A stretch of 64,000 nt of DNA from Alloacidobacterium dinghuense (GCF_014274465.1 NZ_CP060394.1:4154001-4218000), one strand, 5' to 3'; counted from the first letter of the stretch, positions 8,310 through 27,146 are shown. Numbers and translations are program-made. Notes: generated from the letters alone by a model not told the origin.

Positions 8310-8795
8310 AGCAAATGCTGATTCTGAAAGGAAGCGCAAGCAACTTAATATACAGCAGCAATATAGGTTGCAATCCGGCCCAACCACACCCAACGGAGCC
8401 ACTGTCTTAGGTCTGAGAGATGACTGCGCCGTTGCTGAAGGAAGGCCCTTTGATCGCGTGGACGATCTCATCGATGTCCTGAGTTTCACCGGAGCATCTG
8501 GTCTCGATTGGAGAAACAAAGTCGCCAATAGAACTGGCGCATTTGTTCATGCAGATCAACACCGGCAAACATCGGACAACTTTGGTGGAATTTGCAATTG
8601 ATTGCAATGCGTAAGTTGACCACAACACTCCATCGAATATCCCGTCGTTACGACCGGAAACGAGCGTATATCGCCAGCTAGTCGAACAGGTTTCAATAGA
8701 TCTTCATCAGGGCGCTTGCATTTGCTTTTGACTGAGACGATCTGCAAGCCAGAGAATTCAGGATTCCTAGATTGTCGTTAGACGTACTTACACCC
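8310..8795. other. intergenic stretch after drmB
   Basis: I see no supported gene here. Short open frames on both strands lack starts or recognisable content. The stretch contains the first copy of the dispersed palindrome. Confidence 0.5.
8592..8607 (+). repeat. dispersed palindrome copy 1, perfect
   Basis: TTGCAATTGATTGCAA: 7-bp inverted arms around TG. It lies between drmB and the next gene. Confidence 0.9.
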
Positions 8796-9170
8796 TCACT
8801 TTTGAAGTGCGGATTTAGCATAGCTCTCTGCGCTCGGCCAGTCGGTGGAGACGTAACGATCCTGAGATTTGCCATCCTTGTTCACGGTGACCACAAAGAA
8901 TGAATGCTGCCTGGGATACTGCCTGACATCCTCAAGGGAGTCCTCGCTGAGTTCTTCCCAAAGAAAGTCATCGTACTCAATTCCATTGGAGTTCGGGATG
9001 TCCTCCGGCTCGAATTTCTTGCTCAGTTCGAGAGCCTGTGCAAGTGTCTCCTTCGCATCTTGTTCCATGCTGTTAAACACTTCGCGGGCGAAGTCGCGGT
9101 CGTAGGTTTTGATTACCTCGACTGTCACGGGGCCTGCACTCTCTTTCAGAAATGTCTCTTGTCTAGGCAT
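8796..9170 (-). CDS. small acidic protein of unknown function
   Basis: The 124-aa product is acidic and soluble, with no signal peptide or membrane segment. The middle part is rich in Glu/Asp (FEPEDIP, YDDFLWEELSEDSLEDV) and the C-terminus carries a short beta-like run (FFVVTVNKDG). I do not recognise the family. It is followed upstream on the same strand by another small acidic gene, so the two likely form a unit. Bracketed by two copies of the dispersed palindrome. No clear ribosome binding site was seen for the chosen ATG. Confidence 0.6.
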   Translation of the reverse strand: MPRQETFLKESAGPVTVEVIKTYDRDFAREVFNSMEQDAKETLAQALELSKKFEPEDIPNSNGIEYDDFLWEELSEDSLEDVRQYPRQHSFFVVTVNKDGKSQDRYVSTDWPSAESYAKSALQK

Positions 9171-9203
9171 ACAGTATTCTCGTCCCTGTTGCAGGGCAAA
9201 GCA

Positions 9204-9518
9204 TCAGAGTGATGCCGCACCAGCCTCTATCGAACGAGACCTAATGACTTCGGAAATGGTCTCGATGTCTTGGCTCTCGCTCGGGCATGTCGTTGAGATT
9301 GACGACACAATCTCCCCGCTCTCGTCAGTCACAGTCGCTCCCCAGTTGACGTCCGCCGTGCCCCAGACGATCTCGCCACCTACCTGAGTAGGAAGCACCA
9401 CACAGTAGATGTCGCCGCCTGTATCCTGCGAGCTTGCATCGAGCCCACTTGCCTGAAGTGCTTCGGCTACTCGTTCAACAATCTCTTCTTCATCCAGAAC
9501 TCCACCGAACTCTTCCAT
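9204..9518 (-). CDS. small acidic protein of unknown function
   Basis: The start was set at the ATG preceded by GGAG seven bases upstream; an ATG 30 nt further out is also possible. The ~104-aa product is acidic with a predicted helix (EEEIVERVAEALQASG) followed by beta-like strands (GEIVWGTADVNWGATV). No known motif. It lies ~35 nt upstream of the neighbouring small acidic gene on the same strand and is probably co-transcribed. Its acidic character resembles DNA-mimic or inhibitor proteins of mobile elements, but this is only an impression. Confidence 0.55.
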   Translation of the reverse strand: MEEFGGVLDEEEIVERVAEALQASGLDASSQDTGGDIYCVVLPTQVGGEIVWGTADVNWGATVTDESGEIVSSISTTCPSESQDIETISEVIRSRSIEAGAASL

Positions 9519-9821
9519 TTTCTTCTCCAAGGAGACGACCCTCAACATAAGAATTGTACGACCGGGGGATAGTGCAAGTCCGCTGTGATCTCAACAAGCA
9601 ACACGCACTATTGTAGTGACGTTCCCGGAAATTCCTCCGATTCATCTCAACCCCAGTCCCACATCGGAACAAGCAGGCACAAGCCTGTGAATCTGCTATA
9701 CAGCACGACTGGGCCTCTGCGGGATGAGAACTACAGGTCGGAGCCGATGTCCGGAGAGATGCCGGACCTTCCTGATGGAATTGGTTAAATCTGTACGAGT
9801 CCCCCGGGGCGACCTCATTCG

Positions 9822-9837
9822 TTGCAATTGATTGCAA
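9822..9837 (+). repeat. dispersed palindrome copy 2, perfect
   Basis: TTGCAATTGATTGCAA, 18 nt beyond the stop codon of the tyrosine recombinase gene, in an intergenic stretch of about 300 nt that otherwise holds nothing I recognise. Confidence 0.9.
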
Positions 9838-9854
9838 TTTCAAATTTGCCCTCC

Positions 9855-10475
9855 TCAGAAGATCGCCATCAGTGCTGAAGCGGTGGCAATTGATGCTTGA
9901 CGATCCGTAGTCCGAACGTAACGCATAGTCGATCCGATAGATTTGTGGCCGAGCTGTTGTTTCACAAGTGCGAGGTTGACGTTCGCAGCGACTAGATGGC
10001 TTGCTAGGGAATGTTTGAGCGTATGAGGATGGCGCTTTTCCGGCGGCAACCCCACTTCGGTGGCCAGTCGCTTAAACAGGCGGAAAAACTGCGAGCGATG
10101 AATTTGACCACCCTTCTGGCTTATAAAGAGGTAATCTGAGCCATCGGCTCGGCGTTCTCGTAGCCACTCCCGAATGGCTCGGTGCTCGTTAAGAAGAGGC
10201 TCGCCCCGGTGTTCGGTCACGGCTTGGGTCGTCCGTAGAGAGCCTTTCAGGCGCTTGACTAGGATGTTGCCGTTCTTGAGATCAATGTCTTCGAGCCGCA
10301 GATTGCATACTTCCGAAGCACGCATCCCGTGTTTGTAGGTGACAAGTACCATTGCCCATTCACGAGCGCCCCTTGCTCTTGCGGCTCGAAGAGTCGCAAG
10401 AACCTCAGCGGGTTCGAGGTATTGCATGGAAGTGTCGTTTTGCTTGAGGCCAAGTCCCGTAGGATTCACGTTCAT
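9855..10475 (-). CDS. minimal tyrosine recombinase (catalytic domain only)
   Basis: The 206-aa product is almost only a catalytic domain: GMRASEV (first Arg), RLKGS (Lys), HTLKHS, LGHKSIGSTMRY (His and nucleophilic Tyr). It lacks the usual N-terminal core-binding domain, so it is FimB/FimE-sized. The HxxRH box reads HTLKH, with Lys in place of the second catalytic Arg; this occurs in some families. A GTG two codons in has better spacing from AAGGAG than the ATG. It lies in the palindrome-rich island, with a palindrome just past its stop, and could act on local sites such as an invertible promoter or cassette borders. Confidence 0.85.
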   Translation of the reverse strand: MNVNPTGLGLKQNDTSMQYLEPAEVLATLRAARARGAREWAMVLVTYKHGMRASEVCNLRLEDIDLKNGNILVKRLKGSLRTTQAVTEHRGEPLLNEHRAIREWLRERRADGSDYLFISQKGGQIHRSQFFRLFKRLATEVGLPPEKRHPHTLKHSLASHLVAANVNLALVKQQLGHKSIGSTMRYVRTTDRQASIATASALMAIF

Positions 10476-10615
10476 TCTCCTTGAAATGCAACTTTATATT
10501 GAGTTGAGGCTCTCCCATTTCAGTTCGTAAGGGGTTTGTTTAGCGGCTGAGGATATCCGAGAATGCAACAGAATGGGTAGTTTGTTGTATTTTGGCTAGT
10601 ATGCCGAGGCAGCAC

Positions 10616-11719
10616 TCAGGGCGGAATTTCACCCATGCTTGGCGGGAGTTCAGTGGCGATCGTTAGCCCGTCGTAGCAGTAGAACTTCGGTATCCAGTTG
10701 TCCTGCGGGTCGAGGCGTCCGTAACGCTCGAATGCCAGACAGGCTGCATACATGTGGAACCAGACGCCCATGAAACGGACGTCGTCGCCAGCTGAGTGAA
10801 GGCCATCGCAACACCACCTCGGAATCGGTTGTGGGTTCTTCCACCGCTCGCGTGCAGTGTCAACTAGGTCAAACACGTCTGTGGCAAAAACCGGCTCGCT
10901 CCGGTCTGCAACCGGGCTGTAGCCTCCCGCCATCATCCATGCTGCTTGACATAGAAAATTGTTGTCGCTCGACAATGCCGATTTGGCCCGCAGATGAATC
11001 TCGACTAGTCTCTGCGCAAGAGAATGTGTCGTTTTCGCCGCCATCCCCGCCAGGAATTCCGCTTGCCGGGTGGCGCTCAGTCGGGCATGTGAAAGGCCGA
11101 TCACTCCGGCAATGGCTGAAACCGTATCTTGCTCCGCGATGCCTACTTCAATCATGCGAGTCATGTTTTCGAGTGTGTGGTGCCCGTCAAAATGTAGGAG
11201 TTTGCGCTCGGCAAGAAGGCCACTGTAGATATAGTCCTTGCCTCCTGATAAGGGATGCCACCAGTTTGGCATCTTGCAGATGCGGAGTGCTTCCGCAGCC
11301 AGGTAAAGGATGTCTACCCGAGCAAGCACCAGCTGCGGAAAATTGCCAACGACACCTTCCATGACCTCGATGGAATGACCGTCTTCTGCCGACCCGATGA
11401 GCAGGCGCCGCGCCATTCGCAATCGACTAGCCGGCTCTCGAAACGTATTTAGGTAGACGAGCCAATACACGGCATCCTCGGGCCGTCGCAGTCGGAGGGA
11501 TTTGACCAGTCCGGAAAGCGCCTGAGAAAACGTTGGCCGAACTGTAGGTAGGAATGGGCGTCGTTCACTGTGGACGCCAACGGCTCTCAAGTGTTTGCAT
11601 GCTGGACCAGGCATTGCCCGAAACTGGGCGCAGTCGCAGGTCCTGGCATCGCGGGAGATGTGGTACCAAGTCCCCCCGCTGAATGACTTCAAAAAGAAGG
11701 ACTCTTCTGCGAATTTCAT
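10616..11719 (-). CDS. SWIM zinc-finger protein of unknown function
   Basis: The 367-aa product begins with a SWIM-type finger (residues ~17-48: WYHISRDARTCDCAQF, then PACKHLRAVG; the CxCx(n)CxH pattern), a small metal fold used for DNA or protein contacts. The rest is mostly helical with no catalytic motif I recognise; one central segment has many Ala/Arg helices and the end contains WCCDGLHSAGDDVRF. It lies 140 nt upstream of the minimal recombinase on the same strand. No function can be assigned; SWIM proteins appear both in mobile elements and in SNF2-linked loci, and no SNF2 gene is here. Confidence 0.7.
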   Translation of the reverse strand: MKFAEESFFLKSFSGGTWYHISRDARTCDCAQFRAMPGPACKHLRAVGVHSERRPFLPTVRPTFSQALSGLVKSLRLRRPEDAVYWLVYLNTFREPASRLRMARRLLIGSAEDGHSIEVMEGVVGNFPQLVLARVDILYLAAEALRICKMPNWWHPLSGGKDYIYSGLLAERKLLHFDGHHTLENMTRMIEVGIAEQDTVSAIAGVIGLSHARLSATRQAEFLAGMAAKTTHSLAQRLVEIHLRAKSALSSDNNFLCQAAWMMAGGYSPVADRSEPVFATDVFDLVDTARERWKNPQPIPRWCCDGLHSAGDDVRFMGVWFHMYAACLAFERYGRLDPQDNWIPKFYCYDGLTIATELPPSMGEIPP

Positions 11720-12095
11720 TGGAATGGTGTACCTATTAACTTAGACGGAAGAAGAGGCTCGTATGTTCCTCTAAGTGGCTAAAAATAAACGCGTTAAGCG
11801 ATAATTTTCTGGGTAATGCGCTGAGGGAGAGGGGAACTTCAATAGGGCTGAGAGGGCGCTTGAAGATGGCGCTTCCAACATCGGGGATTTGTTTGGGCAA
11901 GGCGGTGAAATGTGCGGAAATGCAAATCAACACATCAGAAACGATCGACGCTGGGAATTCTAGCGTGTCACGAGTTTGATGTAGAAGTCGGTGCTCCTCT
12001 TGGCGACTTTTTAAGGCGCGAATGTTCTCGCATTGGGAAAGAGTGGGCGAGCATCAAGGAACGTGTAGCGACTAATTGTGCTTATGGGGGAAGGA

Positions 12096-12111
12096 TAGCG
12101 ATTGATTGCAT
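12096..12111 (+). repeat. dispersed palindrome, degenerate copy
   Basis: Matches the 16-mer at 13 of 16 positions, 12 nt before a better copy. Confidence 0.5.
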
Positions 12112-12123
12112 GAATTCTGAGAA

Positions 12124-12139
12124 TTGCAATTGATTGCAC
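12124..12139 (+). repeat. dispersed palindrome copy 3
   Basis: TTGCAATTGATTGCAC, 15 of 16 positions, between the SWIM gene and the 479-aa gene. Confidence 0.85.
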
Positions 12140-12266
12140 CGGACAGATGCGCCGAGCGCGATGGTGTGCACGCTAAGAAATGCCGCCTTCATACTTGTTT
12201 TCGATTGAGCTGACGGCATGAACCATAGCGACAAAATCAATCTCATCTGCGGGAATATTGCGCCAG

Positions 12267-13706
12267 TCAATGGGGCAACAAGGGTATTATCGCCGCAGCC
12301 AATTCGACGACTGGCTTGCCGGTCTCGCCGATTGCCTTAGCCCAGTCCATGATTCTTTCTCCCAGACGCACGCCTTCACCTGGTCGCGGTGCTTTCGCGG
12401 TGGCCTCTTCAATAAGATTTCGCGAGTCACGTGCTGCATTTTCCGCAGCAGGCGACGGAGCCAACCGCGCCGCTCCTGCAACGGCCTGAAGCAAACGATT
12501 CAGAAGGTCTTTTAAGTCTTTGTCTGCTCCGGATTGCTCCAACACGTTAAAGCTCTCCTGTAAATGATCGGCAATGACCACCGGGGCTGTTATTGTCGCG
12601 CCTGAGCCGATATTGATGGTTTTGTTCTGTTCCATTCGCTCAACCCTTTCTATTTGAATCGTGCCGATTGTACTCAGGCCTGTGAATAGTTGCGCGGTAT
12701 CTGCTGCATAAAGGTTCATTGTTTGAACAACTGTTTGTACCGCTTCACGGTCTAATTGATTATTCATGACGTTTCGCAGGCTGAATGTCGCGTTTGGGAA
12801 ATGAGTCATTTGTTCGTCGAAATCCGTGATTACGCGCCCGCCATACAGACCTTGAACATAGACTTCTTGAAGCCAGTCCACTATCTCATCAACGGAATTA
12901 GACACAGCAGCATCGAAGGTTGCGTAAGACGCGTACATTTTATTCATGCCTTCAAAGCTGCTCATGAAGCTAATTCCTGCGCTTACGAGCAGGTGCTCGT
13001 GATCCTGGTTAGTCTCCGGAATGAGCGTTTCAACTAGCAGGTACAACTGTGGTACGCCGCGATATTCTCGGTATAGTTCAGCGACCGGGTCCGGCAGAAA
13101 CTGAAGTTTACCTCGCAACGTGCATCGCAGAGCGCCTGCGCTCTTAATCGAATCGATGTAGCGTTGAAACAAATGATCGGGGATGGCGACCGGAAAACCC
13201 TCATGAGCCACACCCGTAGATGAAGCAGATAGAAACCATGCGGTTCCGCCATCAAGCACCTTGGGACGCAAACGAATGCAGCCGACGCCGCCCTTTAACA
13301 TGGAAATTTTCCCATACGGATCGTAAATGTCCAGAAATTCCCGATCTTTACGATTGGTGTCCAGCATATGGGTTCCCGATTTTCGTGGCACCGCAACGCG
13401 TCGGAGGAATTCGCGGGCGTAGAGTCGAGCTTGCTTACCTTCTCTCGTGAAATACAAGCCGGGAGCTCGCGGGAACCACTCGAAGAGGAAAAATTGTTCT
13501 AGGCTCAATGTCATCCCCGCGCGATAGAGCTCCTTAGGTGGTAAGAGGTTCGTCCAGAGCTCTTCATTTGTGAAGGTGGATGCATCCGGTATACGCTTTC
13601 GCGGGGCTATTGGAGGAAGCAAGTAATTCACAGTCCCGATTTGAGTATTGATCAGGTGAAGAGCATCCTCCTGATACACACTGTAAAATTGGTCGGTCTG
13701 CCACAT
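12267..13706 (-). CDS. unknown 479-aa protein with a modular C-terminus
   Basis: No domain is recognised in residues 1-360. The C-terminal ~120 residues run NKTINIGSGATITAPVVIADHLQESF, then a helical segment (DKDLKDLLNRLLQAV), then PAAENAARDSRNLIEEATAKAPRP. A glycine/beta linker followed by such helices is a layout I recall as a C-terminal association module in several multi-domain prokaryotic proteins with different N-termini, some in defence loci; I cannot confirm this. There is no signal peptide and no clear membrane segment, so it is likely cytoplasmic. It stands alone, bracketed by palindromes on one side and a 530-nt gap on the other. Confidence 0.65.
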   Translation of the reverse strand: MWQTDQFYSVYQEDALHLINTQIGTVNYLLPPIAPRKRIPDASTFTNEELWTNLLPPKELYRAGMTLSLEQFFLFEWFPRAPGLYFTREGKQARLYAREFLRRVAVPRKSGTHMLDTNRKDREFLDIYDPYGKISMLKGGVGCIRLRPKVLDGGTAWFLSASSTGVAHEGFPVAIPDHLFQRYIDSIKSAGALRCTLRGKLQFLPDPVAELYREYRGVPQLYLLVETLIPETNQDHEHLLVSAGISFMSSFEGMNKMYASYATFDAAVSNSVDEIVDWLQEVYVQGLYGGRVITDFDEQMTHFPNATFSLRNVMNNQLDREAVQTVVQTMNLYAADTAQLFTGLSTIGTIQIERVERMEQNKTINIGSGATITAPVVIADHLQESFNVLEQSGADKDLKDLLNRLLQAVAGAARLAPSPAAENAARDSRNLIEEATAKAPRPGEGVRLGERIMDWAKAIGETGKPVVELAAAIIPLLPH

Positions 13707-14242
13707 GCGTCACAAATTATAGCTCGGTGGAAATAAGCATTGGACGCTTTGCACATTCTCCAATGAATCATTTGTTCTCCACCGAAATGTTGATAAAACC
13801 GCAGAACTGACTCGCGAATAGCAAACTTGATCGACACGAGTTCGAGGAATAGTGCTGCAGAAACGGCTCACTTATCCAGAGATGTTTCTTGGCAGCGACG
13901 CGGTTCTGGTTTCCCTTGCCCGCCAGGTCGCGGTAGTCACGGAAAAAGTCCCTCCCGGGTGAGGATCCTCTCCATGACATCGCGGCCCGCGCGATGCATG
14001 TATTGCACGCCCTCGACATGGTTAAGGTGAGAGTTTTTTGGGATCAATGCGTTTCCGCCTTCCCCAGGTAACGTGATTCCGCATCGCGGAGCTGAATAAG
14101 TCCCATTTAGGAACACTTCGCCCAAGTTGGCAAGAAATTTGCTTGACCTAATCGCAAGAGTGCGCAACGCTTGGAGCTGCCTTCCCTCGTACCCTCAGAC
14201 ATCTTAGTGGACTCTACAGAGCAACGTGGACTGGAGTGACCA
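13707..14242. other. intergenic stretch before the PLD gene
   Basis: Nothing recognisable. It lies between the starts of two divergent genes and so probably holds both promoters. Confidence 0.4.
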
Positions 14243-16168
14243 ATGCCGTCTATTCAGAAGATTCGAGTCTTCGTAAACTGCGACATGACCCTGATTGCCT
14301 GGCAGGCTGATGGAAAAATCCCGGAATGCCGTGGTTTCGCGCTCGAGCGGCAGGTAAGAGGGGCGGCCGGCGACGCGAAGGACGGGTTCGTCAACACCTA
14401 CGTTGGCTTTGAGGGACAGCAGCACACCAGCGGTGAGGCGCAACCGTCGACGGTTTGGCCAGTCCAACGGTATATCTGGAACGACTATGCGCCCAGTCAG
14501 GGTCAAACTGTGCGCTATCGGGTTGTCCCCATGCTCGGTCCGGCGAGCAATCTGAGGCAAGCGCCACAATCGCAGTGGAGTGACTGGTCTGACTGGATCA
14601 CAGTAGGGACCGCCCAGACGCCGGGTTTCAAGGCTTATTTCAACCGCGGCATAGTAGGTGCCCAATTCCTGTCACGACAGTTCAGCTCAAGTGCGGATTT
14701 CACGAAGGCGCTCACCGGCGACATTAATAGCAACCGGCCGAACGCGGTCAGGACTTTCCTTTCTGGCCCATTACGTGTGGCTCTTCTGGACCTTCTGGCA
14801 CAGGCCAAAAGTGATGGCGGGACGATCTACGCCGCACTCTATGAATTGAACGATCGCGAGATCCTTTCAGGCCTCGCGGCACTCGGTAGGAGGTGCAATC
14901 TGCTGCTCGGTTCGGGAGCGTTCAACAAGACGAGCAAGGACGTCCACAAGCAGACGGATGAAAACTACCAGGTCCGCGCCACCTTGCGTAAAGCCGGCAA
15001 GATCAACCTTTACGACCGTATCGTGGGAGGTGTTCATTTCGCGCACAACAAATTCATCGTCTTCTGCGATAAGCAGGGCAATCCAACGACGTTGTGGACG
15101 GGTAGCACCAATACAACAGTCACCGGGCTTTGCACCCAGGTCAATAACGGTCTGCTCATCGAGGACGCTACGCTCGCGGCGGCCTATAAGACTCGTTGGA
15201 CTGAATTGAAGGGGGCTGGAAACGGATACCCATCGTCATTGATGGTAGAGGGATCGACGCCGGCAAAGGCACCACTGGGTTCGGCTTCTATCACTGCTTG
15301 GAATGTCCCCTGCAACAAGTACGTGGATCTGATAGACGCGAAGGCATACATCCGGGCGGCGAAACAAGGCGTCCTGTTCCTGATGTTCAACCCCGGAACG
15401 GGCGGAACCAAGGGTAAGGAACCGTCTTTGCTTCAGGACATCCAAGCCCTGGGCCAACGGGGTCTGTATATCCATGGCGTCATCAATCAAACGCAGGCGG
15501 CTCCGAAGAAAGACGAGCCGGGAGGCGGCGCTAAATCGACCGTTAGTTTCACCGAACACAACGAGATTCAGAACCCGGTTTCCACCGAAGCCATAACACC
15601 TCATCAGATCACCGAGGCGAATATGAACTGGTTCCACCAAGAATTCCACTTCAGCAACGTGATGATTCACAGCAAGGTAGTGGTAGTCGATCCGTTTGGA
15701 GAAAAGCCAGTGGTGATGACCGGGTCGCACAATCTGGGGCCGAAAGCGAGCAAATCGAACGACGACAATCTTGTGATCATCGAAGACGCGCCGGGGTTGG
15801 CACAGGAATATGCGGTCAATATTCTCGGCGTTTATGGTCACTACAAATGGCTGTACAACGCATGGAGGCAGGCGAAGGACGCGGCGCCACCCGCCGCAAA
15901 ACGAACTAAGGCGCCCCCGATTCCGGTAAAGCCAAGCTACGACGGAAACAAAGACTCCGACGCCTGGCAGGATTACCAGATGGCGGGTGAAAACCTGCAG
16001 TTGACGCAGTTCGTGATGGGCGAGACTGTCACCAAAGTCACGCCCGCCAAAGCAAAGAAAATTGCCAAGGCCGCTCGGCCCGCAACGTCACCGAAGACTC
16101 CTTTACGGAAGAAACCCGCAACGAAGAAGGCGGCCCGGAAACGCCCGGCGAAAAAGGCTGCGGTGTAG
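14243..16168 (+). CDS. phospholipase D-family protein with histone H1-like tail
   Basis: The 641-aa product has an N-terminal ~130-residue part that looks like a fibronectin-type beta sandwich, then two PLD half-sites: HNKFIVFCD (HxK with the Asp one place late) followed by WTGSTNTT, and HSKVVVVD (canonical HxKx4D) followed by TGSHNLG. The last ~45 residues are Lys/Ala/Pro-rich (KKPATKKAARKRPAKKAAV), like histone H1 tails, suggesting binding to DNA. No signal peptide. PLD-fold enzymes cut phosphodiesters in lipids or nucleic acids; with this tail a nuclease is the more natural guess. It is over twice the size of the DISARM protein DrmC and 6 kb from drmB, so I do not call it DrmC. Confidence 0.82.
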   Translation: MPSIQKIRVFVNCDMTLIAWQADGKIPECRGFALERQVRGAAGDAKDGFVNTYVGFEGQQHTSGEAQPSTVWPVQRYIWNDYAPSQGQTVRYRVVPMLGPASNLRQAPQSQWSDWSDWITVGTAQTPGFKAYFNRGIVGAQFLSRQFSSSADFTKALTGDINSNRPNAVRTFLSGPLRVALLDLLAQAKSDGGTIYAALYELNDREILSGLAALGRRCNLLLGSGAFNKTSKDVHKQTDENYQVRATLRKAGKINLYDRIVGGVHFAHNKFIVFCDKQGNPTTLWTGSTNTTVTGLCTQVNNGLLIEDATLAAAYKTRWTELKGAGNGYPSSLMVEGSTPAKAPLGSASITAWNVPCNKYVDLIDAKAYIRAAKQGVLFLMFNPGTGGTKGKEPSLLQDIQALGQRGLYIHGVINQTQAAPKKDEPGGGAKSTVSFTEHNEIQNPVSTEAITPHQITEANMNWFHQEFHFSNVMIHSKVVVVDPFGEKPVVMTGSHNLGPKASKSNDDNLVIIEDAPGLAQEYAVNILGVYGHYKWLYNAWRQAKDAAPPAAKRTKAPPIPVKPSYDGNKDSDAWQDYQMAGENLQLTQFVMGETVTKVTPAKAKKIAKAARPATSPKTPLRKKPATKKAARKRPAKKAAV

Positions 16169-18700: not shown

Positions 18701-18703
18701 ATT

Positions 18704-19474
18704 GTGCTTAACCTGGTGACCGGGTTTGTTCGCACTGAACTTGGAAAACACGCGACCATCGCCGCGGTCCTGATCGTTGCGAGCTTCGTGACTTCTTCAA
18801 TCGCCTACTGGCATGCCAGCCATTTGGCGAGAGAATGGGTGTCTCCCCTTCGGCCGCATTATGGTCTACGTGAGCCAGGCAAAGCCGGTTTCTGCAAGCC
18901 ACCAGGACAGGTTGCAGGAGCAGTGACTCTTCGGCTAGAGGATGACGTGCAGGAAGTTCAAGGACGGATTCAGCACCACTTGAATGTAATGATCTACTTT
19001 TATGCAAACTACTATCGCGCCATCATTATGAGCTCCATCCTTGGAGCGGTGTCAGGTATTTGCTTGTTTTACATCGCAAACAAAGGATGGGCGACAGCGA
19101 GCAACTACGTCGTAACCACTTTCGTGATTTCAACTGTTATCGGGGCATATTTCTTCTCTCTTATTGCAGTGTTTAAGGAGCAGGACAATATCACAGCAAA
19201 TAAGGCGTTATACCTGCAATATGTGGCACTTGGCAACCGGATTGCGAGCTACTGTGCGACAGGCAGCACCGAGAATGCGCAGCCTGAGACATTGGACAGT
19301 TATGTGCATCAGGTCGATACACAGATGGCTGCTATCAACGATGTAGCGATTTCTCTAGACTCGGGTAAGGTCGCCGACTATAAAGCCCTTCTGCAACAAG
19401 AAATGAACTCAAAACAGAAGCTCGCACTACCGCCAGTCGAAGGAGCTGAGAACACAACGACAAAACCGCGCTAA
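18704..19474 (+). CDS. membrane protein coupled to the lipase
   Basis: A GTG start with GGAGA upstream, 3 nt after the lipase stop, gives 256 aa. Hydrophobic segments lie at ~18-38, ~100-125 and ~135-158; between the first two is a ~60-residue loop with Cys and Pro. The C-terminal ~90 residues are soluble and helical. No family is recognised. The tight spacing means it is made together with the lipase and may anchor, gate or inhibit it. This is inference. Confidence 0.7.
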   Translation: MLNLVTGFVRTELGKHATIAAVLIVASFVTSSIAYWHASHLAREWVSPLRPHYGLREPGKAGFCKPPGQVAGAVTLRLEDDVQEVQGRIQHHLNVMIYFYANYYRAIIMSSILGAVSGICLFYIANKGWATASNYVVTTFVISTVIGAYFFSLIAVFKEQDNITANKALYLQYVALGNRIASYCATGSTENAQPETLDSYVHQVDTQMAAINDVAISLDSGKVADYKALLQQEMNSKQKLALPPVEGAENTTTKPR

Positions 19475-19478
19475 GAAG

Positions 19479-19518
19479 GCTAGCTGTTCCGAAATCATGC
19501 TAGCTGTTCCGAAATCAT
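19479..19518 (+). repeat. 20-nt tandem duplication
   Basis: Two adjacent identical 20-nt units (GCTAGCTGTTCCGAAATCAT) just after the stop of the preceding gene. The duplication extends an open frame upstream of the next gene, but that gene's likely start lies after it. Confidence 0.9.
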
Positions 19519-19574
19519 CTTGCGTTCGTTTAGCGCCGCTCTACGTTATCCTTCTCCACGAGGTGATCAGGCGA

Positions 19575-20120
19575 ATGAGCGTCTCGTATACGGGTGTTCT
19601 CGATGTAATTAAGGATTTCGGGCCCATTGTCACTGCAGTCGGAGTCTTCGTGGCGGTTTGGACCCTCCGAGCAAACCATGATTGGAACAGACGTCAGTAC
19701 ACAGCGATCCTCGTGGCGGGCTGGAATGAGAAGACTTCTATCCATCGCAAAGCGATAGAGAGGCTTCGACCTGGTCTCATCGATCTCGACAGTAAAGGTA
19801 CACCTACGGAGCTTACGAGGGCCGATGCGGCAGCAATCTATACGGCCAAACCAGACACTCCCGAGTGGGAGCTTCGCTTCCATTTTGTCGAATTCCTGAA
19901 TCACCTCGAGGCGATTGCCTCGGCGTATCGAAACAAAGTGGCAGATGAGCAGATGTTAGAAGAATCATTTCGGAGTGTACTAATCCGGGTCCACGACATT
20001 CTTGTCAATTTCATAGCGACCGTCGATCAGCACCGAGGTTATGAAGCGTGGGAACCTTACTCAGCCGTAGTCGCGTACTGGAAGAGAAAACCATTTAAGC
20101 CACGCCGCTATACCGCCTAA
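19575..20120 (+). CDS. membrane-anchored protein of unknown function (DUF4760-like)
   Basis: The ATG with AGGTG nine bases upstream gives 181 aa: a single N-terminal membrane segment (IVTAVGVFVAVWTL) followed by RANHDWNRRQY and a helical cytoplasmic domain with WELRFHFVEFLNHLEAIASAY. One-TM proteins with this NHDWNRR-like junction and FLNHLE motif belong to a family found often next to defence and membrane-stress genes (I recall DUF4760); function unknown. It ends the lipase cluster. Confidence 0.65.
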   Translation: MSVSYTGVLDVIKDFGPIVTAVGVFVAVWTLRANHDWNRRQYTAILVAGWNEKTSIHRKAIERLRPGLIDLDSKGTPTELTRADAAAIYTAKPDTPEWELRFHFVEFLNHLEAIASAYRNKVADEQMLEESFRSVLIRVHDILVNFIATVDQHRGYEAWEPYSAVVAYWKRKPFKPRRYTA

Positions 20121-20343
20121 AATAGTAGGCGAGAGAAGACCCTCTTCAGCCAATCCGATAAATCCTATAAGCCTAGTTAGCCTGAAGCTACTGGCGTTCA
20201 CGACGCTGTCGTGCCTGGTGAAGGACGGCTTTATCGATATCTAGTGTGGGCAGGAAGGGACTACGCGGGACGGTGGAGCTGGGTGGTCGCGTTTTTTGCG
20301 GTTTTGGCGACTGTATACGACTCTCGGCACGTTCGGTCTTCCA

Positions 20344-20359
20344 CTGCAATCAATTGCAA
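20344..20359 (-). repeat. dispersed palindrome copy 4
   Basis: CTGCAATCAATTGCAA, 15 of 16, with centre CA, i.e. the reverse orientation. Confidence 0.85.
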
Positions 20360-20642
20360 AATAGGAACGGCCTAATGATCGGCTCATAGGGACAAACCCT
20401 GGAGTTGATCGGAGAGTTGAGCCTCTATATGAATTTTCGGCATTGCGGTCGCCAGTTTCTACATAGTTACAATCGTTGAGAAGCTACTCAGAACTCTCGG
20501 CTTTTGCCGCATGCCCTAGGCGGTGGATGCTGGTAGATTCCCCAGACTTTCTACATTGAGACACATATTCCGCGCTGACATCCTCACTCTTTCTCGAAGC
20601 ACGTAGATTCTGATCTTTCTCGGAAGGCCTCTCGGTCCGTGA

Positions 20643-20658
20643 ATGCAATTGATTGCAA
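20643..20658 (+). repeat. dispersed palindrome copy 5
   Basis: ATGCAATTGATTGCAA, 15 of 16. Confidence 0.85.
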
Positions 20659-20737
20659 TTGAGACCTTACGCTGCCATCCACAAGGTATCCTTCCGATGT
20701 TCCGGCCGCATTGTGGGGCAAGGGAGCTTCCGTCGGA

Positions 20738-20753
20738 TTGCAATTGATTGCAA
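20738..20753 (+). repeat. dispersed palindrome copy 6, perfect
   Basis: TTGCAATTGATTGCAA, 79 nt after the previous copy. Confidence 0.9.
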
Positions 20754-20851
20754 ACGGTCCGACGTCCCGTCTGAATCTAGGAGCAAGGGTGGGCACAAAT
20801 CCGAACATCTAGCCCCTAAATTCCGATTAGTGCGTGGCCGAATGCATATGA

Positions 20852-21739
20852 TCAACGCGCGGCGTGGTTCACCGGAAGTTCTTGTAGGCTCTGGATGTCG
20901 TTGAGGATGGCCTTCACAGTTGCCTCTGTGAGGATGCGTCCTTTCTCTCTCGTCGCCAGCGTCGGGTCACCCCATGCTCCCGTTGGCGAGTAGGTTTTGT
21001 CGGTTGCGTTCGGGTCTCGTGTGAGCCCTCCTCGATGGTGCGGATGCAGGTCTCTCTCAGCCTTTGACATCCTCACAGTGTCAGGAGCGATGTAGAGCAT
21101 CATGGAAGTTTCGATTTCGTCGGCGTGAGTGCCCTCTGGCTCCTGTTGCACTTTCTTAACTACGTCATCGATCTCGTCGAGATCGAGATACGTCATGGTT
21201 ATGCCTTCAGAACCGAGCGTCTTGGCCGCCTCGGAAAGCGGCTTGATGGTTGAAATTCCCGTGTTGATGACGTAGAAGCGCCGCGGGCCATGTAATGCAA
21301 GCGTGCGACAGATTTCCACGACCATATCGCGTGCTGTATTCGACTCGAGAGATGTCGAGCCAGGATATTCCAGGAATGCAGGGTAATAGCTGTAGTTGAT
21401 GGTCGGTGCAATCACCACAGGAGTCGCGGCCAGCACTCGTTTCTTCAAATACTCCGCCATCACCCAGTCATTGTTGAGCTGTAAATGCCGCCCATGTTCT
21501 TTCGATTCCGCGCCCAATGGTATGACTACTACCCGATCCGGCGTCAATATCGGCTCCGCTTCGTCCCATGAGAGATTCTCCAACAAAATGCCGCGATTGC
21601 TATTTTGTGTTTTGGTAGCTGGGGACTTTTGCGCAGAACATTGCATTGTAAACAGCCCAACGGAGAGGAGAATCAACAAGCACCTGAACGCGGAACATGG
21701 TGATGACGCTCTTGTTTTACTTTCTTCTGCAGCCTTCAC
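20852..21739 (-). CDS. exported creatininase-family amidohydrolase
   Basis: The GTG with GAGGG nine bases upstream was chosen; the frame is open further out, but that part runs through a dispersed palindrome and looks non-coding. The 295-aa product starts with a signal sequence (hydrophobic CLLILLSVGLFTM, then QCSAQ). The creatininase fold is shown by IPLGAESKEHGRHL..NND (metal ligands Glu, His, Asp) and GTHADEIETSMM. These are binuclear Zn/Mn amidohydrolases acting on creatinine-like or formamide substrates. Export is known for members in this type of bacterium. Its place between palindromes in a defence island is odd; no pathway partner is nearby. Confidence 0.8.
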   Translation of the reverse strand: MKAAEESKTRASSPCSAFRCLLILLSVGLFTMQCSAQKSPATKTQNSNRGILLENLSWDEAEPILTPDRVVVIPLGAESKEHGRHLQLNNDWVMAEYLKKRVLAATPVVIAPTINYSYYPAFLEYPGSTSLESNTARDMVVEICRTLALHGPRRFYVINTGISTIKPLSEAAKTLGSEGITMTYLDLDEIDDVVKKVQQEPEGTHADEIETSMMLYIAPDTVRMSKAERDLHPHHRGGLTRDPNATDKTYSPTGAWGDPTLATREKGRILTEATVKAILNDIQSLQELPVNHAAR

Positions 21740-21805
21740 AAGTATTACCCTCGCTTTCCCGCGTCCTTTGGGTGGAGCGCGTTGAAGGAAATTGAGCCCC
21801 CAGAA

Positions 21806-21821
21806 TTGCAATTGATTGCAA
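21806..21821 (+). repeat. dispersed palindrome copy 7, perfect
   Basis: TTGCAATTGATTGCAA, 67 nt upstream of the creatininase-family start. Confidence 0.9.
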
Positions 21822-22124
21822 TATGTCTGTGTAGCGTGAGGGAGAGGTCTCCCTCGCCGGGTCGCCTGACAACTGATATTTCGCCACAAAGAACCTAAGA
21901 TCAACACTTTTCTGTTCGCAGTATCGGAATCGCGTACCGAGGTCGTGAGCCAGATTCCGGGGATTCTCAAGCTACAGCAATGGTCCAATCGGCCGGTCTG
22001 GGAGGTGCGCCGGATCGTCACGTCGGTTCTTCAGCTGTGTACTGGATATATTCATCGACTTCAGTACAGGCATCGCTGAGCAGCTTTTCCACCTCGGCGG
22101 ACGGCTATTCTTTAATGAGGCGTT

Positions 22125-22379
22125 ATGAATTGGATGTCGAACCTGCTGAGCCTGGTGTTTGGTTGCCGTCATAAGCAAGACCGCCTGTCGCGTCCGTTCA
22201 CCCATGGCAATCAGACCTACAAAGTCTGTCTCGATTGCGGCAGACACGTACCATACGATGCTGTGCTGTTCCGTCCGCTGACACGCAGCGAGATCATCTG
22301 CCATACGGCGATGTGTTCATCACCTCCGAGAAATACGCCTCAAGGAAGAGCGTCTAGGAAATCCATAATGTCGCGATAG
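22125..22379 (+). CDS. small zinc-ribbon protein
   Basis: An ATG with TGAGGC upstream gives 84 aa: a short hydrophobic N-terminus (MNWMSNLLSLVFG) followed by CRHKQDRLSRPFTHGNQTY, then KVCLDCGRHVPYD. The CxH...CxxC layout with SRPFT..G.TY.VCLDCG is one I associate with small proteins common in Acidobacteria. The C-terminal ~25 residues look random and run 40 nt into the 3' end of the convergent RT gene, so the gene may be truncated there. Function unknown. Confidence 0.6.
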   Translation: MNWMSNLLSLVFGCRHKQDRLSRPFTHGNQTYKVCLDCGRHVPYDAVLFRPLTRSEIICHTAMCSSPPRNTPQGRASRKSIMSR

Positions 22380-24451
22380 ACGCCGGTCAGGTCGATCTTG
22401 ATGCTGTCGCGCTCTCTGACTTTGAGGGGTTTCGTCTTCTGACCAGTTTTGAATTCAAATGGGTGACTTTCGGGTATGCTGTTTCGCCTGTCGTTCGTCG
22501 ATCGCAGGGCCGCCGCCATCGCTGGGAAGTGCTGTGCGAACGGTGCAGCCGCTTCCAACATCACGCCGAACGATATCCACTTGCCGGTTTTTCCCTTGCG
22601 TGGCATGGCACCAGGCAAGCCTTCGGTATTCAGGACATCCTGAAATGCCCCGAAGACGGCATCGTTGAAGGAGTTCTGCAAGGCGAGCCAGCCCGAGCGA
22701 TCCGAGTCGAACTTGTTCTCCGCGGTCAGCAAAAGCTGGAGGGCGTGCTGATAATTCGATCCGAGGAGCGCCTTCCAGCCGCGCCAAGGTCGCAGCTTAT
22801 AGGACGTACGGAGGATATCGCCGATCTGATCGAAGTGTGGTTTGAACCCAACGCTGATTAGCCCCAGGCCTTGAAAAACGTTCTTGACCTCCAATGAAAG
22901 GCGATAGGTAGCTATGCCCATCTGCTTCGGTGACAGTCCTCGATCGACAATTTCCTCCGCCAGAGTCATGCCCGGCGCCGGCATGGGCCTCTGGCAAAGC
23001 TCAGCTGCGATGCCGCCCTTCAAATAATCCTCGTTCGATAGATATGGGACCAGCAGGGACTGGATATATGGGCTCTTGGACCGCACACGCTTGAGTGCCT
23101 GGAAGCTGGAATACAGCCCGGCGTTCCGGCACGCTAGGAAGAAAACGCATATCGCCCGCTGCATCGAGAATGAGAGACTACCGCGCTTTGCTTGAGCGAT
23201 CGCTACTGGCAGCAGAACCTGCAGCTCGTTGGGCCTGGCCTGGCGCGATGCTATCAGCCAAAGTTCTCCTTGGACGTAGTCGTGCAGCACACCCTTCTTC
23301 AGCATGGATGTGACGTGACGGACTATAAGCCGCGATTTCGGGTAGTTCTGAAAGAACGCTGCGAATGCGTCGATGTGCTCGGGATGCGTCGGCAGGAGCT
23401 TCAGGACCTTGTTCAAGATGGTGCGCGATGGGCCACTCCGGTAAAGCACAAATCGAAGCCGGCTCTTGTCGATCACGCGCAGCGGGCGGCCTCCGATCGC
23501 ATCGCCGAATATTTCAACCGCCGCGTCCTCGACCATGTCAGTTTCGTCGGGGTCACGGCCCGTCGACTCCGCAATACTCGGTAGTGTGCCCAAAGCTTCC
23601 GTGACGTCTTTGGCAAAGGACACCTTGAACTTTGACCCCTGCGGGATCAGGCTCCAACGCCGGCATTCCATTTCCAGGACAACGGCAGCGTGCCGAACCT
23701 CATCCTCTGTCTTCGCCAGAACGCGGATATCGTCGACGTAGCGAATGTAAGGGATGCCGGCCTTGTCCATCGCTTCATCCACCGGCAAGAGGAAAATATC
23801 CGCGAGGAAATCTGAAGCTATGGGCCCTTGGGGTATGCCGTGATCGACTGGGATACCCTTGGTATCAGAGGTCCAGACGCTGAGGCATTTCCGAATCATC
23901 TCCCAGGCTTCGTTACTACCTCCGGACGGTGAAACGACGTTCTGCAGTGCCCTGTGGGAAATCGTTTCGTAGAAGGCAGCCAGATCGAAGTGTGCAATCC
24001 AGTGATTGCCGCGGACCAAATGCGTTGCCAGCCGCAACTTGAAATCGTGATAGGTCCGTCGCCAGTCCTGCAGGAAGAAAATTGAGTCTGGCTTCGAATT
24101 CAAACACGAGCTGAAGACCAGCCTGTTCTCAACGGCTCGCCGGCGCTTAAACATCTGCTTCGCCACTTGGTTAGCGATAGTTTGAAGGACGATTTGATCG
24201 TCCAGCGCGAGCAATGTCAGTGGGCGAAGTAGCCCGGACGCTTTTGGCAGGTACATGCGAATGGGGCTCGTCGGCTTCCATCCGCCCTTGAGCTTTTCGT
24301 GCAGCAGTTGAAGGTTCGCCTTTCGCCCAGGCTCGTATGCGCGGTAGAGGTGGCGAAACATTCGCTTGTGCTGGAGGTTCATGGCCGTGGTGATGCGCGA
24401 CCAGGCAAGGTCGAGGTTACCAAACGAGATGAGCGAAGCCTTGCTGATCAT
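22340..24451 (-). CDS. reverse transcriptase of the defence/unknown-group type
   Basis: The 703-aa product carries the RT core in residues ~60-290: RMYLPKASG.LRPLTLLALDDQIVLQ (fingers), IAHFDLAAFYETI with Asp156 (motif A), GIPQGPIASDF at 205-215 (motif B), YIRYVDD with catalytic Asp pair at 240-241 (motif C). The remaining ~400 residues are helical with no maturase or endonuclease domain, so it is not a group II intron ORF, and it is far longer than retron RTs. This fits the UG/Abi-like RTs with a helical C-terminus, many of which stop phage by protein-primed or untemplated DNA synthesis. GGAGG lies ~10 nt before the ATG. Confidence 0.85.
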   Translation of the reverse strand: MISKASLISFGNLDLAWSRITTAMNLQHKRMFRHLYRAYEPGRKANLQLLHEKLKGGWKPTSPIRMYLPKASGLLRPLTLLALDDQIVLQTIANQVAKQMFKRRRAVENRLVFSSCLNSKPDSIFFLQDWRRTYHDFKLRLATHLVRGNHWIAHFDLAAFYETISHRALQNVVSPSGGSNEAWEMIRKCLSVWTSDTKGIPVDHGIPQGPIASDFLADIFLLPVDEAMDKAGIPYIRYVDDIRVLAKTEDEVRHAAVVLEMECRRWSLIPQGSKFKVSFAKDVTEALGTLPSIAESTGRDPDETDMVEDAAVEIFGDAIGGRPLRVIDKSRLRFVLYRSGPSRTILNKVLKLLPTHPEHIDAFAAFFQNYPKSRLIVRHVTSMLKKGVLHDYVQGELWLIASRQARPNELQVLLPVAIAQAKRGSLSFSMQRAICVFFLACRNAGLYSSFQALKRVRSKSPYIQSLLVPYLSNEDYLKGGIAAELCQRPMPAPGMTLAEEIVDRGLSPKQMGIATYRLSLEVKNVFQGLGLISVGFKPHFDQIGDILRTSYKLRPWRGWKALLGSNYQHALQLLLTAENKFDSDRSGWLALQNSFNDAVFGAFQDVLNTEGLPGAMPRKGKTGKWISFGVMLEAAAPFAQHFPAMAAALRSTNDRRNSIPESHPFEFKTGQKTKPLKVRERDSIKIDLTGVYRDIMDFLDALP

Positions 24452-24636
24452 GCAAGCGCCTCCTCCGGCGAAGCTGAAATTGTAATGCGGTCGTCAATCG
24501 AACTGCGAGCGCATCGCTAACTGTCGCGAGGGAGGTCAGAGGTGCCACCCGGAAATCCCTTCGATCAGGCCTCCTGCTTCCTTTTTGAACGCGCCCTGCG
24601 TGTTCGACAGAACGGTTTCACGATCCAAATAGTTTT

Positions 24637-24652
24637 GTGCAATTGATTGCAA
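24637..24652 (+). repeat. dispersed palindrome copy 8
   Basis: GTGCAATTGATTGCAA, 15 of 16, upstream of the RT start. Confidence 0.85.
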
Positions 24653-24691
24653 TTTGATCCCGTCGCCGCCTGCGGATCGATAGCCCTGAAC

Positions 24692-24707
24692 CTGCAATTG
24701 ATTGCTG
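24692..24707 (+). repeat. dispersed palindrome copy 9, degenerate
   Basis: CTGCAATTGATTGCTG, 13 of 16, 39 nt after the previous copy. Confidence 0.7.
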
Positions 24708-24926
24708 CAGGTGCTGCCCGCAGATTGAGCAGACTTCGGCGAAACGGTACCTTCGTAACTCGTCGGCGCAGGGCGGTGGCTTGTATTCTTGGCAGACAAG
24801 ATCACTCGCCTTTAAGTCCAAAACGCCGCTGGCGGTAACTTCTACGCCACAGTGCAATGCATTAAGCTGTTCTTCATCGGCAGGAAGATAGGCGATTTCT
24901 TAGGCAATTATGGGGCGGAAGACAAG

Positions 24927-25388
24927 ATGAAAAGCAAGCAGGTGACGAGTAAGTTCTCGGGTTTTGTGCTGAAGGGGGCGTCAGCACAGTGCTATGACGC
25001 CGTCTTGAAACTCAGAACCGCTGAGCGCGAGGCCGACGAAGATCGTAAGGAAGGCGTCAAACGGAAGCGTGCCGAGCTAAAGACCGCCGCCGATGTTAAG
25101 GCGGCGGACGAGTACGAGATACCGGCCGAACGCAAGATCGCCGCGGCGAAATACAGGGCTGAAGCTAGAGAAAGAGCCAAAAAATACGAATGGGAACTGC
25201 AACGTAAGGCGAGCGACGCTTCTAGAAAGCTATATAGCAAGAGTCTGGCCGCCGCTGAACGTAAGGTCAACGAGCTATTGCTTGAGGCGACGGACACGCA
25301 AATTGAGCCAAATGGGCATCTTGAGGTGTATCTCAGAGAGTTGCGAATTACCTTATCGCAGCGATTGCGTCAGATCGGCGTGTATTGA
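24927..25388 (+). CDS. charged coiled-coil protein of unknown function
   Basis: From the ATG with CGGAAG upstream (a GTG at 24852 would add 25 residues) the product is 153 aa, extremely rich in Lys, Glu, Ala and Arg. Residues ~25-125 form a near-continuous charged helix (heptads such as RTAEREADEDRKEGVKRKR). No catalytic motif. It could be a structural or nucleic-acid-binding partner of the divergent RT, or an unrelated phage-type scaffold-like protein. Confidence 0.6.
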   Translation: MKSKQVTSKFSGFVLKGASAQCYDAVLKLRTAEREADEDRKEGVKRKRAELKTAADVKAADEYEIPAERKIAAAKYRAEARERAKKYEWELQRKASDASRKLYSKSLAAAERKVNELLLEATDTQIEPNGHLEVYLRELRITLSQRLRQIGVY

Positions 25389-25451
25389 CCACAGGGGACT
25401 GGCGTTTCAAGATTTAACTGGGCTATTCTTCTCCACTCTCTCTTGGTCCCA

Positions 25452-25467
25452 GTGCAATCAATAGCAG
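25452..25467 (-). repeat. dispersed palindrome, degenerate copy
   Basis: GTGCAATCAATAGCAG, 13 of 16, reverse orientation. Confidence 0.65.
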
Positions 25468-25548
25468 GACGCGGCCGCACAAAATCTTCAACTGATATGT
25501 GTGTTGCTTCGCAATTGGTGAAAAAGAGTGTTCTTGATTGCGCGCGCC

Positions 25549-25564
25549 CTGCAATTGATTGGAG
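25549..25564 (+). repeat. dispersed palindrome, degenerate copy
   Basis: CTGCAATTGATTGGAG, 13 of 16. Confidence 0.65.
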
Positions 25565-25683
25565 TTAAAACCACCCATCCGGATGCGCCCAGATGAGACA
25601 CTGATACCCTCGTGTCCGTCGGTCGCTTCGCTTTCGCGAAGTGCTGGTGAGTGTTCAGGCTCGCTTGTGTAGCCGTCTCCAAA

Positions 25684-25699
25684 TTGCAATCAATTGCAA
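25684..25699 (-). repeat. dispersed palindrome, perfect, reverse
   Basis: TTGCAATCAATTGCAA, the reverse complement of the forward form. Confidence 0.9.
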
Positions 25700-25850
25700 C
25701 GCAGCGATGACTGGTCTATCGATCTGAGCCACGGTAGCACGATTTAGGCTTCTCGACTGTTGACACCTTATTTACTTGTTTCGACGCAGAACCTTCTGTC
25801 CTGCCCCAGGACTCTGGGATTGCAAGCAGAACTCGAAGCAATTCCAAGAA

Positions 25851-25866
25851 TTGCAATCGATTGCAC
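25851..25866 (+). repeat. dispersed palindrome with CG centre
   Basis: TTGCAATCGATTGCAC; with centre CG the site is fully self-complementary except for its last base. It lies 27 nt past the stop of the next gene. Confidence 0.85.
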
Positions 25867-25892
25867 TGGCATTCCTCCGAACTGGGATCGAA

Positions 25893-26255
25893 CTAGGCGT
25901 ACATGTCCTTCCCGTATAAGACCTTCATCGCACATTCGATCTCGTCCAAGGTTATGAGCTTTTTGTCAGTCATCAAGCTGACTGCTACAAAACAATGTGC
26001 GAGCAAAAATCCGATATGAGGGGTGTCAGGACAGGTTGCCAGTCCGTTCCAACATTTGGCTCGTGTCGTGAATTCACACCAGTGACTGACCGCATAAGAA
26101 ACTACTGGCTCTGTATACATCCCCAGCTTTCGATAAAGCTGCTTTAACTGCCCCGCCTGTTTAGGGGTTAATGGTGCGGAATCAGCTTTCAGCGCTGTAG
26201 CTACTTGATACTGCCAATGAAATGCAAGCTTCGATGATTTAGTCGATGGTGGCAT
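25893..26255 (-). CDS. small helical protein of unknown function
   Basis: The internal ATG (MPPSTKSSKLAFHWQYQ) gives 120 aa; the frame extends upstream but with little protein-like content. The product is helical (LTPKQAGQLKQLYRKLGMYTEPVVSYAV, then FLLAHCFVAVSLM) with scattered Cys. No family recognised. The next gene on this strand, 250 nt upstream, is the HUH-type protein, so it may belong to the same small element. Confidence 0.5.
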   Translation of the reverse strand: MPPSTKSSKLAFHWQYQVATALKADSAPLTPKQAGQLKQLYRKLGMYTEPVVSYAVSHWCEFTTRAKCWNGLATCPDTPHIGFLLAHCFVAVSLMTDKKLITLDEIECAMKVLYGKDMYA

Positions 26256-26313
26256 TCTTTTGGACCCTTTCTCCGCTGAGCATATGCAGATCGGATTCTG
26301 CTGCTCAGAAAAA

Positions 26314-26423
26314 CCTGCGGCTCGACCTGCTCGCCGCCAAATCAATCAGCGCCTCCACTTCGTTCGGCGCCAAAGCAGGCTTCTTTTCTTTTTAAGAACC
26401 CGCGGCTCGGCCTTGCTCGCCGC
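26314..26423 (+). repeat. imperfect 25-nt direct repeat pair
   Basis: Two GC-rich units at 26314-26338 and 26399-26423 (core GCGGCTCG..C.TGCTCGCCGC) differ at about three positions. They lie between the helical-protein gene and the HUH gene and could be part of a replication or nick site, but there is no direct sign of that. Confidence 0.5.
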
Positions 26424-26502
26424 AAAGGCATCGCTCGCGTTCTCTAGCCTAGGCTCGCTCGCAATATTCGCTACTCAAATCGGATTCCCACTGATTCCTG
26501 AC

Positions 26503-27090
26503 CTACGGTCGTAGATGGCATTGTGGAGGCCCCGTATTCCCAAATTGTTTTTGTCGAGTACGATGCCGACTTAGGTGGCGTCTCTCTCTCTTATTGAGCA
26601 GTACAGCTTCTGGATGAAATAGATGAAGTTTCCGCAATGCCAACCCTCCGTCAGGGTGATTCATCATCTTCAGGATGTATGAAGCGCCATTCCGAGTGCT
26701 ATCGTATGGTTTGGCCGATGCGCCAGACCCATTGGCTCTCTTGCCAGCCATTCTTGTCCAAATGGATTCCACAAAGAGCGGACGCAGTGGTGCGGCACTG
26801 GTCAAGAGGGCATGAAAGTGACGACCGGATGCTGGTTTGCCACATCCAGAAAGACGTTTTTCATCACCGCGCACGTAGACTATATCGCTCCGATAGAATT
26901 TCTCGAGTTGATTTATATACTCTGCGAAGACTTTCTCGGCTTGCTGGTCGGATACACGCGATGCAAAGGTGAATGTGCAGAACAGTTGCCACGGTATCGT
27001 TCTAATCCACGTTGCATATTCTTCTACGATCTGCCGGTCTACCGCGTACGGCCAACGCTCACGCTCATACCAGCGGGCTAAGTTTTGCAT
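26503..27090 (-). CDS. HUH-endonuclease-like replication/transposition protein
   Basis: The start is the ATG nine bases after TAGGAG; an ATG three codons earlier abuts that site. In the ~195-aa product I see FCTFTFASRVS (motif I-like strand), GRHFHALL (the His-x-His metal motif II) and ASYILKMMN (Tyr with a Lys three places on, motif III-like). This is the pattern of rolling-circle Rep and related HUH nucleases, which nick DNA and stay bound through the Tyr. No helicase domain. A palindrome lies 40 nt upstream of the start. It could replicate a small phage/plasmid or move short palindromic repeats. Confidence 0.65.
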   Translation of the reverse strand: MQNLARWYERERWPYAVDRQIVEEYATWIRTIPWQLFCTFTFASRVSDQQAEKVFAEYINQLEKFYRSDIVYVRGDEKRLSGCGKPASGRHFHALLTSAAPLRPLFVESIWTRMAGKRANGSGASAKPYDSTRNGASYILKMMNHPDGGLALRKLHLFHPEAVLLNKRERRHLSRHRTRQKQFGNTGPPQCHLRP

Positions 27091-27130
27091 GGTTCTCATC
27101 TCCTAATCGAATTCGTTTTTATGGTGTTTC

Positions 27131-27146
27131 CTGCAATTGGTTGCAA
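27131..27146 (+). repeat. dispersed palindrome, last copy
   Basis: CTGCAATTGGTTGCAA, 14 of 16, directly upstream of the HUH gene. No further copies are seen to the right. Confidence 0.8.

Follow-up and report, generated by a model that had tools for sequence, protein, structure and literature searches.

A 16-bp palindrome dispersed along a family of tRNA-targeting integrative elements in Acidobacteriota

What is the role of a short palindrome that recurs some fifteen times between the modules of a defence island in Alloacidobacterium dinghuense? The stretch of DNA analysed here, called the window, covers 64,000 nucleotides (4154001-4218000 of a genome of 6,271,114 bases). An earlier note on it had offered three readings of the palindrome: a recombination or insertion site of a cassette-like system served by a minimal recombinase, a REP-like palindrome moved by an HUH protein, or the operator of a LacI-type regulator.

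The palindrome is real and locally abundant. A match search of both strands, allowing up to three mismatches, gives 25 match lines, which correspond to 15 places in the window, where 0.66 lines would be expected; none of 100 shuffled sequences came near this count. The fifteen coordinates listed in the earlier note are all correct, and so is its count of five perfect copies; these are at 8592, 9822, 20738, 21806 and 25684 (minus strand). Two more perfect 16-mers lie to the left of the window, at genome positions 4143908 and 4144132, for a total of 17. A count over the whole genome, which the note had suggested, shows the 16-mer to be enriched in one element and practically absent from the remaining chromosome. 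Outside this element there is no match with 0-1 mismatch, and matches with two mismatches are found at five places only.

The element is an integrative element of 40.5 kb. Both ends carry a 47-bp direct repeat that corresponds to the 3' part of tRNA-Met. It lies at window -12433..-12387 and again at 28023..28069 (the right att repeat, plus strand, identical to the tRNA-Met 3' end at the left position). All 17 copies therefore belong to a single element. The absence of copies right of 27.2 kb, which had been noticed before, is borne out and is explained by the end of the element at its att repeat, 28023-28069. The element's own integrase-type protein (490 aa) is located at the tRNA end. The cargo includes DrmA/DrmB and a NERD-helicase (DISARM-like), a UG19 reverse transcriptase (RT), a PLD-domain protein, a HigBA-like pair and a creatininase-like gene, among others.

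A third copy of the repeat lies at 37025..37070. A second integrative element, with a 408-aa integrase, occupies window 28023-37070 in tandem at the same tRNA-Met, so that the att repeat (46-51 bp) is present in three copies across both elements. The tandem neighbour contains no copy of the 16-mer.

Within the element, the copies had been described as intergenic. All 17 are indeed noncoding, in an element of which 79% is coding by curated genes (p about 4e-12). Gaps between convergent genes hold 8 of the 17, and the density is 4.0 per kb in convergent, 2.1 in divergent and 1.1 in tandem gaps. Orientation is skewed 13:3 (p 0.02).

From left to right, a perfect copy at 8592..8607 (plus strand) lies between a convergent DrmB-like gene and acidic gene, and another at 9822..9837 (plus) follows the recombinase stop codon at a distance of 17 bp. 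The match search places two more on the plus strand at 12096..12111 (three mismatches) and 12124..12139 (one mismatch). A single convergent gap holds the copies at 20344..20359 (minus, one mismatch), 20643..20658 (plus, one mismatch) and 20738..20753 (plus, perfect). Upstream of the creatininase-like gene is the perfect copy at 21806..21821 (plus), and upstream of the RT gene the copy at 24637..24652 (plus, one mismatch); the match search adds 24692..24707 (plus, three mismatches). Another convergent gap is shared by 25452..25467 (minus) and 25549..25564 (plus), each with three mismatches. The perfect copy at 25684..25699 (minus) stands within a conserved noncoding block and is absent from that place in three relatives. 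Finally, a copy with a CG centre and no assigned strand (25851..25866) lies 26 bp past the stop of a helical gene, and one with two mismatches (27131..27146, plus) lies about 32 bp upstream of the HUH gene start.

This distribution does not suit LacI operators, and that reading was abandoned: the chromosome has no regulon, 8 of the 17 copies sit in convergent gaps, and the element genes that were scanned include none of LacI type. A factor encoded by the host could also bind the sites, if copies were tolerated only on this class of element. The fact that no gene is common to all palindrome-bearing elements would favour such a factor, but the host chromosome without a regulon, the tandem neighbour without copies and the association with a recombinase described below make it very improbable.

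The shape of the motif gives a second line of evidence. Across 55 copies, drawn from 16 loci, TGCAATTGATTGCA stands out as the conserved block. Positions 7-13 hardly vary, conservation at positions 1 and 16 is loose, and the sharp core measures 12-14 bp with arms of 5-7 bp. There is no information outside the 16 bp, in agreement with the earlier statement that the flanks are not conserved. The description of the unit as 7-bp arms around a 2-bp centre can be refined, in that the centre is not free: 54 of the 55 copies have TG there, in an alignment whose search pattern itself had a TG centre and allowed up to three mismatches.

Two other features were seen at copies outside the window. The motif TTGACAAA sits 3-13 bp from several palindromes (G041, L067, L094, L026), and in these loci, not in the window, it is over-represented at distances of up to 40 bp from a copy (7 against 0.13 expected). 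It was considered as a promoter -35 and rejected, as by eye no -10 lies at a fitting distance. In a genome without the recombinase, a perfect 16-mer occupies the loop of a long inverted repeat (L112, 2154-2215).

Movement by the HUH protein can be judged from the same comparisons. The HUH Rep-like protein (26503..27099, minus strand) matches Pfam REP_ORF2-G2P only weakly (E 0.007, short of the curated cut-off) and, in the test for a RAYT, has no Y1_Tnp match. Of about 12 elements with the palindrome, only 2 have a close HUH relative, and the note's second reading is not supported. The genome-wide dispersal typical of REP/RAYT is not seen either, with no 0-1-mismatch copy beyond the element. 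The HUH protein was rejected as a mover in a further comparison, in which relatives of at most 40% identity carry no palindrome copies.

Alternatively, the 16-mer may be a self-spreading mini-palindrome of the REP or RPE kind, with a transposase or errors of replication as the cause of its movement. Numerous copies 3' of genes and a conserved block that gained or lost a discrete stretch of about 20 bp would agree with this origin. It is nevertheless improbable, given that a flank or target signature is absent, that no hairpin preference exists around copies (no enrichment, including for 16-mers in hairpin loops), that HUH relatives mostly lack the palindrome, that copies are restricted to one element, and that one copy is an in-frame substitution.

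The helical gene next to the HUH gene (25893..26345, minus strand) has relatives in L026, L067, G041, L066, G030 and L095. Its product either stands alone beside the HUH gene or is fused to a winged helix (HTH_36/DnaD-like), as seen by comparing window 25893-27099, L066 6400-7527 and L095 8307-9416. It may be a replication protein.

Is the palindrome peculiar to one element? Clusters of the 16-mer with its fixed TG centre recur in related elements of Acidobacteriota, about a dozen in all, many of them in fragmented MAGs with mechanical gene calls; the statistical clusters were partly obtained by searching near known members, and the comparison includes one genome per species. At no more than one mismatch, the 16-mer occurs in 55 of 397 genomes of the order, against a handful for the reversed control, and the scan finds clusters in G030, G098 (L094) and G240. 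Some of the isolated near-matches found elsewhere in the order are coincidences within coding sequence, as in the homologous contexts of L114 and L115.

The 16-mer is associated with one clade of a minimal tyrosine recombinase. In the window, this protein (9855..10475, minus strand; Pfam Phage_integrase, E 1.8e-37) has 206 aa and consists of the catalytic domain only. Relatives with 71-77% identity are found in G041, G067, L066, L067 and L068, each with 16-mer copies within 5-15 kb. L068 is from the Bryobacterales, another order, and the clusters span several genera and one other order. All six intact recombinases of at least 70% identity are accompanied by copies, versus none of the four at 64% or below (50-64%; Fisher p 0.005). 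No recombinase relatives were found in viral contigs.

Remnants extend this association to elements that have lost the gene. In G091 (L086) the junction of SWIM gene and palindrome keeps the start and end of the recombinase, with the middle gone; in L094 a recombinase gene fragment adjoins a palindrome copy; in L072 the 3' end is retained; and in G030 the leader alone is left, inverted. The available sequence of G157 and G240 contains no recombinase. Most palindrome-bearing elements, though not all, therefore have a recombinase or once had one. No gene was found intact in every palindrome-bearing element. As a separate observation, the recombinase genes of L070, L071/L057 and L072 are cut at differing codons and joined to unrelated sequence, which in L071 is a kinase-like frame.

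Co-occurrence and gene remnants thus uphold one half of the note's first reading, the link with the minimal recombinase. The other half, palindromes as cassette junctions, meets contrary evidence in the recombinase leader and in two individual copies. The main rival explanation treats the palindromes as integron-like recombination boundaries, at which the minimal recombinase would excise, insert or invert units; a 26-bp sequence in its leader would serve as primary site. It is unlikely, if still a serious candidate.

The leader (10476..10591, minus strand) is conserved and contains block 1, the 26-bp core-like site, and block 2, TTGCATT. The site has inverted 10-bp arms and a 6-bp spacer and lies upstream of the recombinase gene, once per element; in L069 it is perfect (TGCAACAGAA-TACTCG-TTCTGTTGCA). 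In sequence, this 10-6-10 layout resembles what a tyrosine-recombinase core would have. The half-site TGCAAY/RTTGCA recurs in the leader, which is found in the window, L066, L067, L068, L069, G041, G067, G048 and L086, and inverted, with the gene missing, in G030. Two of these relatives, L069 and G048, have no palindromes, so a better core-like site exists even without the 16-mer. No covariation of leader arms with palindrome arms could be traced: G048 has CGCAAC arms, but no palindromes for comparison.

The enzyme itself is unusual. Lys replaces the second catalytic Arg in every family member examined that covers the site (50-77% identity): the motif is HxxK, against HxxR in XerD and in 4a8e, the solved XerC-like recombinase that matches best. 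The recombinase has a FimB-like invertase match, but HxxK departs from the R-H-R-Y tetrad of FimB-like invertases, and its NCBIfam integron integrase score is 57.7 bits against a cut-off of 265.

The partner gene (10616..11719, minus strand) encodes a SWIM zinc-finger protein of 367 aa, whose low-confidence structure prediction (pLDDT 52) was set aside. The gene before the recombinase encodes either a SWIM protein, as at window 10616-11719, or a RarA-C-terminal-like protein (compare L066, L067, G067, G030 and L107); L069 has an RFC/RarA-type AAA+ ATPase at this place. Homology between the SWIM and RarA-like partners was considered and found no support.

Individual copies speak more directly to mechanism. 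The partner gene of G067 has a one-mismatch copy inside a conserved part, encoded in frame with no gap (MQLIAT against ALRLISA and ALQLVSA) and mostly by less-used codons. A copy can therefore arise by substitution. The earlier statement that copies bracket units is fair as geometry, but homology runs through both sides of one copy, which therefore, at least, is no junction.

The copy at 25684 splits a noncoding block (25651..25740, minus strand) that is continuous in G067 (13013-13121), L067 (6579-6685) and G030 (27386-27472, all in locus coordinates), with a net insert of about 18-21 bp. The alignment indicates that this copy was gained or lost alone, with no cargo, although a gain could be the scar of an excised unit. 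The block, near the helical, replication-like gene, is better conserved than the genes and is a possible origin or transfer site.

L094 points the other way. Its copies at 5881 and 6701 have about 122 bp of flank in common on one side (76%) and nothing on the other, and an 820-bp unit is enclosed by direct repeats, each made up of the palindrome and about 125 bp. A 254-bp unit of palindrome and small gene is also duplicated: a small acidic gene follows each of the copies at 9623 and 9877, and the two genes are paralogous tandem duplicates (9623-10050). Both pairs look like unit duplications that include the palindrome.

Recombination boundaries thus draw support from the unit-border position of palindromes, the recombinase association, the recombinase or leader remnants beside palindromes in L086, L094, L072 and G030, the bracketed and duplicated units of L094, the inverted leader of G030, the orientation bias and the FimB-like match. 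Against them stand a 16-bp site with a 2-bp centre, smaller than known tyrosine-recombinase cores, the leader site, the Lys at the second catalytic Arg and the G067 and 25684 copies, which are no junctions. Moreover, TG flips orientation at the orthologous 3' site of the partner gene between L067 and G030/L107. The fuller version, an integron-like shuffling of defence cargo by the catalytic-domain-only recombinase and its SWIM/RarA-like partner, with the 26-bp site as primary and the 16-bp sites as secondary, is doubtful to a slightly greater degree.

The leader site, HxxK, the in-frame G067 copy and the 25684 copy fit better with binding sites than with cassette crossover sites. Binding sites are also favoured by the sharp core between random flanks, the confinement to one element, the clusters in other genera, the association with the recombinase clade, the noncoding positions with their highest density in convergent gaps, and the half-site in the recombinase leader. 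The tentative answer, held at somewhat below even confidence, is that the 16-mers are dispersed binding sites of a dimer encoded by the element. In this family of tRNA-targeting integrative elements, a DNA-binding dimer would recognise the dyad-symmetric site, and copies would be kept along the element, mostly in harmless gaps between transcription units. The bound protein might cover, insulate or regulate units, or have a part in the organisation or recombination of the element, acting element-wide much like the dispersed KorB operators of IncP plasmids. The likeliest source of the protein would be the recombinase module, either the recombinase or its SWIM/RarA-like partner. We infer that a protein binds the 16-mer, and likewise what it would be and what its binding would do.

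Several observations count against binding sites. The centre is asymmetric (TG in 54/55), a 13:3 orientation is unexpected for a symmetric operator, no gene is intact across all palindrome-bearing elements, and the one-sided flank homology of L094 (about 120 bp, two pairs) is as for a unit boundary. The L094 duplications, the unit-border geometry and the orientation bias keep the cassette model alive.

Since the palindrome is confined to the element and recurs with the small recombinase in relatives, it is the mark of a system for control or assembly that acts element-wide and is undescribed. That a DNA word so strongly conserved belongs to one mobile-element family, in several genera and another order, points to such a function, and its carriers hold DISARM, reverse-transcriptase and restriction cargo. 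As a recombination site it would represent a new route for assembling defence islands; as a binding site, a new island-wide controller. In either case, the 16-mer is a simple sequence handle for locating such elements.

The 16-mer and three close variants had no match in the literature searched, which mostly did not reach subscription papers, and topical searches found no published description of the palindrome system. Several known systems can be compared with it. KorB operators (O_B) of IncP plasmids and parS-type sites are short palindromes dispersed on one replicon. They share with the 16-mer the short perfect palindromes in many intergenic gaps of one replicon and a host chromosome that lacks them; the sequence differs, however, the operator role here is putative, and no ParB/KorB protein was found in the scanned subset of element genes. 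REP/RAYT systems also combine short intergenic palindromes with an HUH protein nearby, but the 16-mer has no GTAG-type foot, no RAYT and is limited to the element.

Integrons (attC/attI) resemble the element in having repeats that delimit diverse cargo and a tyrosine recombinase with a conserved site beside its gene. They differ in that the 16-bp unit has no attC structure, random flanks and no single array at the recombinase, occurs in convergent gaps and inside a gene, and goes with a recombinase that lacks the N-terminal domain and has Lys at Arg-II. In pdif/Xer systems, short sites likewise lie between exchangeable modules; the 16-mer lacks their 11-6-11 architecture, and the recombinase leader site has 10-6-10. 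In the PAISt island of Streptomyces, the 8-bp palindrome TTCATGAA is tied to tyrosine-recombinase-mediated modular excision (PMC4057263). The palindrome itself is the att site there, and a 47-bp tRNA repeat is the att here. PAISt is a precedent for a palindrome linked to modular excision.
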